This document shows, piece by piece, positions 22,732 through 27,234 of a DNA stretch of 63,332 nucleotides. The number at the start of each line of letters is the position of its first letter. The stretch's first letter is position 1. The position numbers were made by a program, and so were the translations under genes. Under the pieces are notes generated by a model that saw only the letters and a list, made by a program, of their open reading frames with translations, was not told the origin of the DNA and made no database searches. Source of the stretch: Terriglobia bacterium (GTDB lineage Bacteria; Acidobacteriota; Terriglobia; Terriglobales; Acidobacteriaceae); contig JAJPJE010000103.1 in assembly GCA_021324365.1 (NCBI GenBank), positions 1-63,332 of the forward strand, given 5' to 3'.

Positions 22732-24654
22732 GTGGGACGAGGCGCTTGCTTGGTTCAGAATGATAAAGCACGGTCCCCGCAAGAGCGCGGTACGTCTGCT
22801 CGCACGCTGGCGGAAACAGTCCTTGAAACCATCAATACCATCGTCCTCGTAGCCAATGACAAAGGCGAAATCCTGTATGCGAGCCCGTCTGTACATAGAA
22901 TTCTTGGCTACAATCCTGATGAACTGTTAGGCATGAAGTACTGGGGGCTCCCGTCTCCCAGTCCAGAACTTCGCAAGCAGCATCAGAGAAACGTCATGGC
23001 GCGGGCACGTGGTGAGGAACCCGCTTCGGAACTTCCGTATCCAGTAAAGATGCTGACGCGGTCGGGAGAGGAGCGCTGGATACTGTGGCGAGATGCGCGC
23101 GCGGATGGGAATCTGCTGGTTGGCGCAGGGCAGGACATCACCGAGCTGAAGAGCGTACAGGACGAGCTCAAGTCCACGAACGATGAGATCCACGCCGTAT
23201 TCGAACGAGCCAATGACGGCATGCTGCTTGTCGACGAAGATTTGCGCTATGTGGACGCCAATCCGGCCGCTTGCGAGATGTTTGGCCTCCTCCGTCAAGA
23301 GATTCTCGGCAGGCAAGTAGGCTCAATCATGGGCACCAAAATTGGCCTTGAGCGACTGCGTGCTCAAATGATTAGCGCGGGGGAAGCTTCTGAAGAGATG
23401 GAGTACACGCGTCCGGACGGCTCCCGTGTGACCCTGGAAGCCCGCATCACCGCGAATATTCGGCCGGGCTTCCATCTGGTCATAGTCCGTGACATATCTA
23501 CGCGAAGAATACTCGACCAGCAAATAGCGGAATCTCAGCGGATGGAGGCCATCGGAAGGCTAGCGGGCGGCGTGGCTCACGAGTTTAATAATATGTTGAC
23601 CGCGATCAGCGGCTACTCCGAGCTGATTTTGAAGAATGCTACCGCTGAAAGACACGTTCGCAAGTATGCTCAGTCAATCATCGACGCTGTCAATCGCACG
23701 GCGAACACGACGCAGCAGTTGCTGGCCTTCTCGCGACGCCAGGTAATCCAACCGAGGCCGCTGGTTATCAATGATGTAATTCGTGGCACCACGGCGATGC
23801 TGCAAAGCCTGATGGGGGAGGACATCCAGCTGATTCTTCGATTGAATGAGGGATCCGGAAAGGTACAGCTTGATCCTGGACAGCTAAGCCAGATTCTGAT
23901 CAACCTCGCGCTGAATGCGCGCGAGTCGATGGTCGCTGGTGGCAAGCTGATCGTCGAAACGAGCCCGGCACATCTTGACCACGCATATCGAAGCAAGCAC
24001 GTTCAAGTGAACCCCGGCTTATACGTGTTGCTGGCGGTTAGCGACACGGGCGTCGGAATCAAACCGGAACTCCAGCCACACATCTTTGAGCCATTCTTTA
24101 CGAGCGCAGAACTCACGAAGGGAACGGGACTGGGACTGGCAACCGTTTACGGAATCGTCCGGCAGAATAATGGGCATATTTGGGTATATAGCGAGCCGGG
24201 AGCGGGCACCACGTTCAAAGTATACTTTCCCGCGTTGCAGGAACAAGCAGAGCCATCGGCTTTGCAAAAGGAGCTTCCACAGCAGCAGGCGACCATCTTA
24301 GTGATTGAAGACGACGCAAGTAGCAGGCAGGCAATAGTAGACGCCCTCAGCGAACAAGGCTATCGTGTGTTGCAGAGCGCGGATGGAGGCGAGGCATTGG
24401 AAATCTGTGAGTCTCATTCGGGCCCCTTGGCGCTAGTCGTTGTCGATTTAGGAGCGCCTGCAATGAGCGGGGAAGACCTGCGTGCCTATTTTGCTGGGAA
24501 ATATCCCGCTACCAAACTTCTGCACATGTCGGGCTACGCAGAACAGAAGCTGAAAACGACAGGCGAATTGCCACCCGAAGTAGAGTTTCTGCAGAAACCA
24601 TTCACCGTTTCCGATCTTCTCCAGAAGGTTGCGTCGATCCTACGCGAGCAATAA
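22732..24654 (+). CDS. hybrid sensor histidine kinase PAS-PAS-HisKA-HATPase-REC
   Basis: 640 aa, no membrane segments, so a soluble sensor. PAS domain 1 (about 30-140), PAS domain 2 (about 150-255), HisKA with the phospho-acceptor in VAHEFNNMLTAISGYSEL (about residue 280), then the ATPase with N-box NLALNARESM, G1 SDTGVGI and G2 GTGLGLATVYG. The C-terminal receiver (about 520-640) has acidic EDD, Asp in VVVDLGAP and Lys in LQKPF. It phosphorylates its own receiver and probably another regulator. The GTG start is not strongly supported. Its end is 7 nt from the convergent HD-GYP regulator. Confidence 0.92.
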   Translation: MGRGACLVQNDKARSPQERGTSARTLAETVLETINTIVLVANDKGEILYASPSVHRILGYNPDELLGMKYWGLPSPSPELRKQHQRNVMARARGEEPASELPYPVKMLTRSGEERWILWRDARADGNLLVGAGQDITELKSVQDELKSTNDEIHAVFERANDGMLLVDEDLRYVDANPAACEMFGLLRQEILGRQVGSIMGTKIGLERLRAQMISAGEASEEMEYTRPDGSRVTLEARITANIRPGFHLVIVRDISTRRILDQQIAESQRMEAIGRLAGGVAHEFNNMLTAISGYSELILKNATAERHVRKYAQSIIDAVNRTANTTQQLLAFSRRQVIQPRPLVINDVIRGTTAMLQSLMGEDIQLILRLNEGSGKVQLDPGQLSQILINLALNARESMVAGGKLIVETSPAHLDHAYRSKHVQVNPGLYVLLAVSDTGVGIKPELQPHIFEPFFTSAELTKGTGLGLATVYGIVRQNNGHIWVYSEPGAGTTFKVYFPALQEQAEPSALQKELPQQQATILVIEDDASSRQAIVDALSEQGYRVLQSADGGEALEICESHSGPLALVVVDLGAPAMSGEDLRAYFAGKYPATKLLHMSGYAEQKLKTTGELPPEVEFLQKPFTVSDLLQKVASILREQ

Positions 24655-24661
24655 TCGACTA

Positions 24662-25765
24662 TCACTCCGCTTCGTAGAACGGATTCAGCTGTGCCGCGAG
24701 TTTGTCTGCATCCTTACGCAATTCAATCCACGTGCTGTCGGGGATGGATTGAAAAGCTCGGACGAGCTTCGGGTCGAATTGCTTGCCCGCACAACGGTCA
24801 ACCTCAGAGTGAACTTTCTCGATGGTGAGAGCGGCTCGATAGCAACGATCCGATGTCATAGCATCGAGCGTGTCGGCAAGGGCAAAAATGCGTGCGCCGA
24901 GGGGAATTTCCTCTCCCGCAAGATGATCTGGATAACCAGTGCCGTCCCAACGCTCGTGATGATGCCGGATCACTGGAGCGGAATCACGCAGCATGGAGGA
25001 ACGAAGAACGATGTGCTCTCCGATCATTGAGTGCCGTTGCAGCATCGCAATTTCTGCCGGTAGCAGTTTGTCCGGCTTGAGAAGAATCTGGTCGGGAACC
25101 GCGATCTTTCCGATGTCGTGCAGAAGCGCGGCAGTGGAGAGCATCGGCAACTGATCTTGCGAATAGTTAATTTGCTTTGCGAGGTGCATCGCATAGGACC
25201 GCACCCGAAAGGAATGAGCGCAGGTCTCGTGCTCGCGAAGATCGAGTATTACAACCATGGATTCGATGAGCTCGCGATAGCTGTTCTGAAGCTGCCGCCG
25301 GGTGTCTTCGAGTTCAAGTACGCGATGATGCAGGCCAGTTCGCAACTGATTGCGTCGGAAGCGTTCTGTACGTGACCGGGTCACGCGGGCATACGCTGTC
25401 CGCACCGCTGCCTGAAGTACGTTGGGAGAGAAGGGCTTCAGTAGGATGTCGGTAGCATGCAGCCGGCAGGCTGTCACGATGTCATCGACCTGCGGCTTTC
25501 CGGTCATGACAATCAAGCCGACGTCCAGCTGAGCACGATCGGCGTGTTTCAGGATTTCCAATCCGCCGCCGCTCGGCATGTATAGATCGCAGAGCACAAC
25601 GTCAAACGCATCGCTTTCCAGAGCAGAGAGTGCTGCCGTTGTGTTGCCTGCCTTCACTACCTGTGTGGCGATCGGCGGCAATGCTTCGGCTACGGCTTCG
25701 CAAATGGTTGGCTCGTCATCGACAACAAGGACCTTCGGGCGGGCATCGATAGCGTCGGGCAGCAT
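24662..25765 (-). CDS. response regulator with HD-GYP c-di-GMP phosphodiesterase domain
   Basis: 367 aa. Receiver (about 10-125) with VVDDE, phospho-acceptor Asp in VVLCDLYMP and Lys in LLKPFSP. The HD-GYP domain follows, with LLHDIGKIAVPD and the diagnostic HHERWDGTGYP motif. It hydrolyses cyclic di-GMP in response to phosphorylation. The adjacent, convergent hybrid kinase is the obvious candidate partner, though this is inference from position. PilZ at 14.9 kb is a possible downstream reader. Confidence 0.93.
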   Translation of the reverse strand: MLPDAIDARPKVLVVDDEPTICEAVAEALPPIATQVVKAGNTTAALSALESDAFDVVLCDLYMPSGGGLEILKHADRAQLDVGLIVMTGKPQVDDIVTACRLHATDILLKPFSPNVLQAAVRTAYARVTRSRTERFRRNQLRTGLHHRVLELEDTRRQLQNSYRELIESMVVILDLREHETCAHSFRVRSYAMHLAKQINYSQDQLPMLSTAALLHDIGKIAVPDQILLKPDKLLPAEIAMLQRHSMIGEHIVLRSSMLRDSAPVIRHHHERWDGTGYPDHLAGEEIPLGARIFALADTLDAMTSDRCYRAALTIEKVHSEVDRCAGKQFDPKLVRAFQSIPDSTWIELRKDADKLAAQLNPFYEAE

Positions 25766-25942: not shown

Positions 25943-26629
25943 ATGAGACTACTGATTGCTGAAGACGACGCACCGCTAGCCGGATTTTTGCGCAAGGGTT
26001 TCGAATCTGAAAGCTACGCTGTCGATGTGGCAAAAAATGGAACGGAAGCAGAAGAATTGGCGGGGTTGTACCCCTACGATGCGCTGATCATGGATTGGAA
26101 CCTGCCGGGACGCGACGGAATCTCCGCGCTGCGCGGTATTCGCGAGAACAAATCGGGCGTACCCGTACTGATGCTTACGGCAAGGAACCGTATCGAGGAC
26201 CGGGTCCAGGCGCTCGACTGTGGAGCCGACGATTACCTGATGAAGCCGTTTTCTTTTGCCGAGCTGTCTGCTCGCGTCAGAGCACTCATGCGGCGTGGCA
26301 GAACTCCACTAGACACGCGTCTGCAAGTCGACGATCTAGTCCTGGATCGTCTAGAACACCGAGTGGAAAGGAGTGGTCGCCCGATTGAACTGACATCGAA
26401 GGAATTTGCTCTCCTTGAGTACCTGATGAGAAACGCAGGTAGACGAATTACGCGTGCCATGATCATCGAGCATGTGTGGAGCATCACCTTCGACACCAGC
26501 ACCAACGTTGTGGACGTCTACATCAACTATTTGCGGAAGAAGGTGGACGAAGGAGCACAACGGAAGCTGATTCACACGGTTCGTGGAGTTGGCTATGAAC
26601 TCAGCGCACATCCGGAGCAAACTTGCTAG
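25943..26629 (+). CDS. OmpR-family response regulator
   Basis: 228 aa from ATG 25943 (MRLLIAEDD) with AGGG upstream. Receiver with phospho-acceptor in DALIMDWNLPG, Thr in MLTAR and Lys in LMKPFSF. The C-terminal winged helix shows the recognition segment RNAGRRITRAMIIEHVW and TNVVDVYINYLRKKVD. It is a DNA-binding transcription factor. Its stop overlaps the start of a kinase-like gene by 7 nt, as in many two-component pairs, but that partner is unusual (next entry). Confidence 0.93.
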   Translation: MRLLIAEDDAPLAGFLRKGFESESYAVDVAKNGTEAEELAGLYPYDALIMDWNLPGRDGISALRGIRENKSGVPVLMLTARNRIEDRVQALDCGADDYLMKPFSFAELSARVRALMRRGRTPLDTRLQVDDLVLDRLEHRVERSGRPIELTSKEFALLEYLMRNAGRRITRAMIIEHVWSITFDTSTNVVDVYINYLRKKVDEGAQRKLIHTVRGVGYELSAHPEQTC

Positions 26630-27234
26630 ATCGAGAGAAGAGGCGCAGATATCTTTCGGAAGCCTTTCACGCTTTGGCTCAACCTATTACCGGGTTACAG
26701 TGCGGACTTGAAGTTGCCATCGCGAAGCCCCGGACTGAGACTGAGTACAAGAAACGCATTGGTGCTGCGCTCGAAGTGACTTCGACTTTCCGCGAGTTAG
26801 CGGCCGCCCTTCGCGATTTAACGGAAGCGGACGATGTTGGCGAGCATCCAGAAAAACTCCACTTGCCCACGTTCTTCATTCAACTCTGCGAGTCTCTCGA
26901 AAGACTGGCCGATCTCCACGAAACCACGCTGATGTTTAACTGCGTGCCCCCGGTTAACGTCGATGCCGACTGTGAAAGACTGCTCAAGACACTCGTATTC
27001 CTGGGAGACCAGCTGTTGAAAACGGAAGGAAATGTCCAGTTTACAACCCGCGACTTAGGTCTCTGTGTGGAAATCACACTCAAAGAAACCTCCGGAGAGA
27101 AGAGCAGCCGGTTAAGGAATCCTGAATCTGTGATCCGCCTAAACGCGGCAGAGAATTACCTCGAAACGATAGGTGGCCGGCTCTCAGTAATTCCAAACGG
27201 ATACGTAATTACACTGCCTGTCGCGAAGGTCTGA
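26623..27234 (+). CDS. minimal histidine-kinase-like protein, no sensor, degenerate ATPase
   Basis: 203 aa, TTG start overlapping the regulator gene by 7 nt. An H-box-like helix AFHALAQPITGLQCGLE near residue 18 matches the HisKA pattern HxLxxPL/IT. A second helix carries TSTFRELAAALRDL. The rest has the size of a catalytic domain, ending in YLETIGGRLSVIPNGYVITLPV, which fits the last strands of HATPase_c. The N-box asparagine and DxGxG loop are not recognisable. There is no membrane or PAS region. It may be a phosphotransfer or regulatory pseudokinase rather than a kinase (ChpT-like logic); this is inference. Confidence 0.7.
   Translation: MLDREKRRRYLSEAFHALAQPITGLQCGLEVAIAKPRTETEYKKRIGAALEVTSTFRELAAALRDLTEADDVGEHPEKLHLPTFFIQLCESLERLADLHETTLMFNCVPPVNVDADCERLLKTLVFLGDQLLKTEGNVQFTTRDLGLCVEITLKETSGEKSSRLRNPESVIRLNAAENYLETIGGRLSVIPNGYVITLPVAKV

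Follow-up and report, generated by a model that had tools for sequence, protein, structure and literature searches.

Degenerate histidine kinases that have turned phosphotransferase have been described in the cases of ChpT, Spo0B and PhyT (PMC5898713; PMC3433190). In ChpT the ATP lid is gone and extra helix turns stand in its place, and the protein is reported not to autophosphorylate (PMC3433190). In Ruegeria, the CckA-ChpT-CtrA relay governs flagellar motility (PMC3692519; PMC9981736). Work on the HisKA kinases CrdS and HK853 has shown that the acidic residue at position H+1, counted from the phospho-accepting histidine, is required for kinase but not for phosphatase activity, and that Thr or Asn at H+4 is required for phosphatase activity (PMC3510030). 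Kinase-derived dimeric phosphotransferases are few in the portions of the literature available to us (ChpT, Spo0B and PhyT), and the Acidobacteriota are a candidate further origin.

The locus considered here lies in a stretch of 63,332 nucleotides from a Terriglobia bacterium (contig JAJPJE010000103.1), which we refer to as the window. On its forward strand, the gene of an OmpR/CopR-type response regulator (25943–26629) is followed by that of a 203-residue protein (26623–27234), here called the mini-protein: a sensorless, degenerate histidine kinase that we propose to be a DHp-type histidine phosphotransferase. The coordinates given by a first-pass annotation, 25943–27234 for the pair and 26623–27234 for the partner, are correct: the regulator runs from an ATG at 25943 to a stop at 26629 and its partner from a TTG at 26623 to a stop at 27234. 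The mini-protein frame opens at 26599, and the TTG, which overlaps the end of the regulator gene such that the two share 7 nt, is the sole ATG, GTG or TTG start that retains the histidine; a GGAG (26614–26617) five bases before it is the likely ribosome-binding site. The regulator itself has an intact receiver (E7, D8, D9, the phospho-accepting Asp51, Thr and Lys) and a winged helix, matched in Pfam by Response_reg at 8.6e-28 and by Trans_reg_C at 3.6e-28. Among NCBIfam models, TIGR01387, for heavy-metal CopR/CzcR regulators, fits it best, with 245.7 bits against a cut-off of 279.2.

The H-box that the annotation had reported in the mini-protein, FHALAQPIT (26665–26691), is there, with F15 preceding the phospho-accepting His16 (codon 26668–26670); the acidic residue at H+1 has gone, Ala being found in its place, and H+4 is Gln. 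The absence of sensor and membrane segment is likewise borne out: only 15 residues precede the histidine, leaving none of the sensor or input domain seen in HisKA/HATPase_c kinases, and the 19-residue Kyte-Doolittle mean peaks at 1.07. As the annotation had also said of the N-box and DxGxG, neither is recognizable; by alignment and model, the N-box Asn, DxGxG, GxG and ATP lid, and with them the ATP-binding motifs of such kinases, are all missing. A Pfam scan of the 203 residues returned no family match at E<=10, and NCBIfam returned kinase models only, all weak and far under their cut-offs (best PhoR, 7.4e-5; TIGR01386, 16.2 bits against 292.55).

Structure prediction, which the annotation had suggested as a check, gave a kinase-like DHp-CA core. 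The AlphaFold2 model, a single chain built from the window protein and 13 proteins of named records (pLDDT 83.6, pTM 0.74), begins with a helical hairpin (residues 2–34 and 39–68; 26626–26826) that corresponds to a DHp domain carrying the phospho-accepting histidine, a hallmark of HisKA/HATPase_c kinases that model helices and family histidine both support. Further on, a helix at the place of the N-box (residues 117–132; 26971–27018) lacks the Asn, and a loop of 11 residues (156–166; 27088–27120) replaces the D-box tail, F-box, ATP lid and G-boxes. The predicted fold is thus that of a kinase DHp-CA core minus its lid, and the catalytic-domain-like end noted at first pass appears in it as a degenerate catalytic domain behind the DHp domain, as in ChpT. 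In fold comparison, the best 50 matches (Z 15.5–17.2) all come from kinases and phytochromes, either as DHp-CA cores or as catalytic domains, and include a YycG/WalK-type core (Z 17.2), CusS (16.4) and HprS (15.8). ChpT is not among these best 50 for the single-chain model, and neither ChpT nor Spo0B is among the best 50 of either fold comparison, which says nothing about the fold; nor did a profile search of PDB sequences, with 53 matches at E<=10, recover either of them.

A scan of genome contigs with the single protein found no relative, and a search of 100 relatives found small-frame relatives beside OmpR regulators amid many full-length kinases. An alignment of 14 (A1), used as a profile to search 398 genomes belonging to the same family, placed a small-frame member (197–382 aa) in at least 56 of them, the source genome included; a closer subset of relatives (A2) yielded 14 named loci. 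We fetched 58 regions, namely 55 small-frame A1 hits, G061 and G098 from the search of 100 relatives, and the full-length G358, whose locus L117 holds a normal full-length kinase (105 bits) and served only as a control; with the window added and L117 removed, 58 mini-protein loci remain. Members were picked by frame length and regulator pairing rather than bit score, because full-length frames reach 119 bits and the weakest accepted mini-proteins score 94–97. In a sample of the class, 16 of 349 genomes match at E<=1e-32, every one in a small frame (211–340 aa), and 8 of the 16 lie outside the family of the source genome, with a regulator upstream in all eight of these outer members. L119 and L148 are one protein (G098), so that the 58 rows and 8 outer members amount to 65 loci. 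The phylum sample gave 7 matches in 347 genomes at E<=1e-30: three are small frames from the same family, and the other four, beyond the class, are full-length frames of 469–515 aa. All 65 loci fall within one class of Acidobacteriota, Terriglobia, the class being taken from the titles of named records (Acidobacteriaceae, Acidobacteria, Terriglobia and Candidatus Sulfotelmatobacter MAGs). A literature search of titles and abstract openings found no earlier description of the family. An apparent fusion of the mini-protein to a sigma54 activator (L131/L056, a frame of 559 aa) was dropped since the frame crosses unknown bases, and L056, an assembly-gapped mini-protein that formed a nineteenth control row, was left out of the count of full-length kinases.

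Across the 58 aligned rows, the histidine is present in all 56 that can be read at that position, and Gln at H+4 and Pro at H+5 in 57 of 57. The acidic residue at H+1 survives in just 7 of 57 rows (and in 4 of the 8 outer members), the N-box Asn in 5 of 58 and the D-box Asp in 6 of 58; DxG and GxG are found in none of the 58, and one Gly of a G2-like motif is left in 17. The 18 true full-length control kinases, by comparison, all have HEL[RK]TP and DxGxG. In a chosen subset of 31 rows (A3), HisKA matches 29 members at E<=1, the window protein not among them, and HATPase_c matches four. The highest 19-residue hydropathy mean among the other mini-protein rows is 2.01 (L072), which lies inside the range of 1.66–2.22 of three full-length kinases. 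In all 31 A3 rows, H+11 is Cys; in the window protein this is Cys27 (codon 26701–26703), in the H-box helix at a regulator-contact position, and Gly is found there in L111, L116, L119 and L145. H+8 and H+11 correspond to A268 and A271 of HK853, which PDB titles name as rewired kinase-regulator interface positions.

It could be argued that such a protein is a kinase subunit still, either phosphorylated in trans by a full-length kinase within a mixed dimer or binding ATP in some unusual manner. The catalytic-domain fold is predicted to be kept, five members retain both N-box Asn and D-box Asp, and two outer members look less decayed: L145 (G457:C17) has HEMAQP with N-box and acidic H+1 kept, and L152 (G086:C24) has HELSQP and hydrophobic stretches, peaking at 2.6, that we take for two membrane helices, both proteins being without DxGxG. 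Since the acidic H+1 remains in 7 of 57 rows, some members could keep activity. Against this, DxG and GxG are missing family-wide, the lid region is cut to the 11-residue loop in the window protein, and 50 of 57 rows have lost the H+1 acid, so that we regard a surviving kinase subunit as improbable. These members that keep old kinase parts (L152, L145 and the five with N-box) have another use: through them the order in which sensor, ATP site and catalytic base were lost becomes testable.

The pairing with the regulator, whose conservation the annotation had proposed to check, extends across the family: in 57 of the 58 loci the gene is preceded, in the same orientation, by that of an OmpR regulator, and the exception, L118, is a sequence that begins inside the gene. 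Three loci, L072, L105 and L110, have a split or truncated regulator frame. Among the 57 regulator rows, those readable at the respective positions keep the acidic pair in 56 of 56, the phospho-Asp in 56 of 56, Thr or Ser in 55 of 56 and Lys in 55 of 55. A 4-base overlap of stop and start joins the two genes in 33 of 57 loci, and the distance from the regulator stop to the His codon is 20–151 nt in 55 of 56 (39 in the window; 316 in L072, with its split regulator frame), and therefore leaves little room for a sensor. The layout is more than chance, because the 58 aligned rows are alike and the regulator stands upstream in all but one locus. With the histidine invariant, the regulator residues kept and the ATP motifs gone, it follows that the histidine side and the receiver have been held and the ATP side has been lost.

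Such a pattern might also be expected of a phosphatase that acts as a brake and nothing more, in which the DHp hairpin and the Gln at H+4 hydrolyse the aspartyl phosphate of the regulator, acetyl phosphate or a different kinase supplies the phosphate, and the histidine serves for docking or catalysis. The invariance of that Gln and the overlap of the two genes, of 4 bases in more than half the loci, are in keeping with it, as is the dependence of phosphatase activity on the residue at H+4 rather than the H+1 acid in CrdS and HK853 (PMC3510030), with the limit that Gln is not among the residues tested in the accessible part of that study. The conservation of the histidine in every readable row is, however, stricter than phosphatase function alone would obviously demand, and we consider an exclusive phosphatase unlikely. 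Phosphatase capacity as such is likely.

Selection was assessed with our own implementation of the Nei-Gojobori method. In 13 pairs of relatives, the 12 finite values of dN/dS range from 0.20 to 0.46, so purifying selection acts on the gene in these relatives; the window gene is too diverged for the test. Of the 11 pairs that allow the comparison, 10 show a lower dN/dS in the DHp hairpin than in the catalytic part, one of them by a mere 0.002. The exception is L081/L118, whose clade retains N and D boxes, L118 being truncated. That the mini-protein is merely a functionless, decaying remnant of a kinase gene might be read from the loss of its catalytic motifs and from the C-terminal half, which in most pairs evolves more quickly than the hairpin. 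The dN/dS values largely contradict such an account, and the maintenance of open frames and of regulator pairing across the class, together with the invariant histidine, also tells against it; we hold it to be highly improbable.

As to descent, a first tree sets 33 true full-length kinase rows apart by a 100/98 branch and makes the window protein sister to L069 (100/86), then to L073 (97/88). A second tree, built also without L114, L115, L116 and 13 near-duplicates and with the G098 protein standing in it twice, separates 18 full-length kinases at 100/100 and places nearest to them the 8 outer members, then the clade that keeps the N-box together with L111, with moderate support (83/77 and 96/87). 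The truncated L110 and L118 were excluded from both trees, and the root is an assumption, full-length kinases having been taken as the outgroup rather than found to be so by the tree method.

If the mini-protein is a phosphotransferase, it would receive its phosphoryl group from a receiver domain, and the first-pass annotation had suggested that the pair could be the output of a relay fed by an orphan kinase, for instance the hybrid kinase at 22.7 kb. The window does contain a CckA-like hybrid kinase, soluble by hydropathy (PAS-PAS-HisKA-HATPase-REC; 22732–24654, forward strand), which ends 1.3 kb upstream of the pair and whose best NCBIfam model is that of CckA, NF046020 (336 bits against a cut-off of 1000). 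Its receiver (24295–24630), intact and the proposed direct donor, has by eye the acidic pair (EDD), an Arg where CckA has R583, the Asp, HMSGY where CckA has FxSGY, and the Lys (PMC9981736); the first F of the CckA motif is therefore not retained. All the parts of a CckA-ChpT-CtrA-type relay, as parts alone, are thus found in the window: a hybrid kinase with an intact C-terminal receiver, a histidine protein and an intact OmpR regulator.

This much of the suggestion stands; where it falters is that a hybrid kinase with a C-terminal receiver lies beside the pair in only 5 of the 65 loci (the window (WIN), L069, L073, L074 and L145), with none found in the other 60 within the fetched flanks, which were about 5 kb in 58 loci and about 1.5 kb in the rest, some of these flanks stopping short where a contig ends. 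Since WIN, L069 and L073 are one lineage, these count as three independent cases. With nine hybrids per genome and about 25 independent loci, the chance of three or more is roughly P about 0.003, a figure that is only suggestive because 25 is a guess and regulators cluster. In L074, one strand carries in succession the hybrid, the regulator, the mini-protein, a sigma54 activator, another kinase, another regulator and flagellar genes, and hybrid and pair apparently share an operon. In L145 the hybrid gene lies just downstream on the opposite strand. The kinase adjoining the pair in L062 has no receiver, and a phosphotransferase would therefore be needless there. Overall, the hybrid kinase at 22.7 kb is the best candidate for the phosphoryl donor, at slightly less than even odds.

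The supply of other phosphotransferases in the source genome bears on the same question. Nine hybrid kinases were counted there outside CheA-like frames, by matching frames and positions by eye, and a search with PF01627 at E<=0.001 found no stand-alone HPt: its four matches all lie in three frames (776, 1169 and 717 aa) that also hold HATPase_c, one of which looks like CheA from the part of it that was read, and the mini-protein is not among them. An HPt may lie outside PF01627, or in the missing portion of the genome (roughly 5%). The mini-protein is a candidate partner of the hybrid kinases here, where no stand-alone HPt of the known family was found, and that vacancy speaks against a role confined to dephosphorylating the regulator.

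The genes around the pair were tallied over the 58 loci by phmmer with bait proteins within the fetched stretches, the FliF and sigma54-activator baits having been assigned by Pfam and the FliA/WhiG baits by TIGR02479, above cut-off in 4 of 4 tested. A sigma54 AAA+ activator lies downstream in 28 of the 58 loci (L120:7790-9076, the locus of L066; L074:6125-7246; 26 further loci; 3.6 kb away in L114). The N-termini of these activators mostly have a VLVAS-like string where the acidic pair of a receiver belongs, with the Asp retained, and Pfam scans of three of them (L120, L074 and L126) gave no Fis-type HTH; in these features they resemble FlgR/FleQ-like flagellar activators. Flagellar genes follow the module in 12 of 58 loci, FlgB, FlgC and FliE being named by our reading of the sequences, and a FliA/WhiG sigma factor follows it in 19 of 58 (L070:3101-3943, L089:6339-7151, L111:6119-6877, L116:3001-3975 and 15 further loci), never both in one fetched stretch. 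Other neighbours, which we label presumptively as FleS/FleR-like, have AtoS and AtoC as their best NCBIfam models, under cut-off. A purely flagellar role was considered and rejected: FliF is found in 12 of 20 mini-protein-carrying genomes tested, including the source genome (on another contig), and was not found in G006, G015, G023, G036, G053, G061, G154 and G224, some of which are incomplete, so the module is not bound to flagella alone. G006, G023 and G154 have a FliA/WhiG sigma factor.

In 16 loci of one clade (L094, L097-L110 and L113) the pair stands behind a c-di-AMP cyclase (DAC) and a phosphoglucomutase-family gene, and in the two of these that were scanned, L100 and L108, an amidohydrolase lies downstream. 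Divergent to the pair in the window is a gene for a receiver-HD regulator (24662–25765, reverse strand; Pfam Response_reg and HD_5), whose product we read as HD-GYP/RpfG-like. Such a divergent neighbour is found in 7 of 58 loci (the window, L063, L069, L072, L081, L095 and L096) and in part in the outer loci L149 and L151, and by analogy with branched relays it could be a second acceptor.

Taken together, with sensor and fuel site lost and the phosphate-carrying histidine kept, the mini-protein probably relays signals instead of making them, and its relatives in soil Acidobacteriota display that decay at several stages. It seems probable that it is a phosphotransferase of some kind, and nearly as probable that it is a former CusS/HprS-type kinase turned into a dimeric phosphotransferase between a receiver and the OmpR regulator. 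We infer from motifs and model that it lacks autokinase activity, and it would thus be unable to autophosphorylate; His16 would take its phosphoryl group from a receiver domain, for which the CckA-like hybrid kinase is the most plausible source here, and would pass it to Asp51 of the regulator and perhaps to the divergent RpfG-like protein as well. While the hybrid kinase is off, the mini-protein could drain the regulator by means of the invariant Gln at H+4. Such wiring would be that of CckA-ChpT-CtrA, arrived at separately in Terriglobia. More tentatively, Terriglobia may have evolved a relay of their own, from hybrid kinase through dimeric phosphotransferase to OmpR regulator, separately from Alphaproteobacteria and Bacillus. 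This relay may govern motility or a set of genes under a sigma factor, the output being flagellar genes or FliA/WhiG, in many loci preceded by a sigma54 activator whose receiver is degenerate, and its phosphotransferase may be found at several stages between kinase and relay in living species. The family also offers a lead on the control of flagella and FliA/WhiG sigma factors in Acidobacteriota.

How close the mini-protein comes to the described systems depends on what is compared. By profile, CusS/CopS/HprS-type kinases are its closest solved relatives, and they are also among the top folds (7zp0, 9epn); in comparison with them, it has lost the sensor, the membrane segments, the acidic H+1, the N-box, DxGxG and the lid. 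Its paired regulator has a CopR/CzcR model as its best NCBIfam match, the regulator type that accompanies such kinases. The annotation had likened the layout to ChpT and Spo0B, and the likeness holds for the pattern of a kept histidine and a lost ATP site, which is family-wide, and for the predicted fold, and fails for family membership. With ChpT the mini-protein shares, by its predicted single-chain fold, a DHp hairpin and a catalytic-like domain without ATP lid, and also a phosphate-carrying histidine near the N-terminus (PMC3433190), as well as the OmpR-family output, the CckA-like hybrid near the pair in the window and, for some relatives, the position beside flagellar genes. It differs in that its gene overlaps that of the regulator, in that its sequence kin are CusS/HprS-type kinases, in having a short loop at the lid site where ChpT has extra helix turns, and in not being among the 13 matches to PF10090 at E<=10 in its own genome, a family which 8 control genomes match, Caulobacter included, above cut-off in one.

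Spo0B of Bacillus is comparable as a dimeric hairpin phosphotransferase grouped with degenerated histidine kinases (PMC5898713), and differs in family, the mini-protein not being among the nine matches to SPOB_a (PF14689) at E<=10. PhyT of the Sphingomonas general stress response, formerly proposed to be a phosphatase and, as we read the source, earlier named PhyP, offers the precedent of a kinase with a degenerate ATPase domain that is a phosphotransferase (PMC5898713). Compared by description only, PhyT has a predicted membrane anchor, a periplasmic domain and HRxxN, and belongs to another pathway, whereas the mini-protein is soluble and has HALAQP. By analogy, then, we read the mini-protein as functioning like ChpT, Spo0B and PhyT, from outside the sequence families of ChpT and Spo0B.
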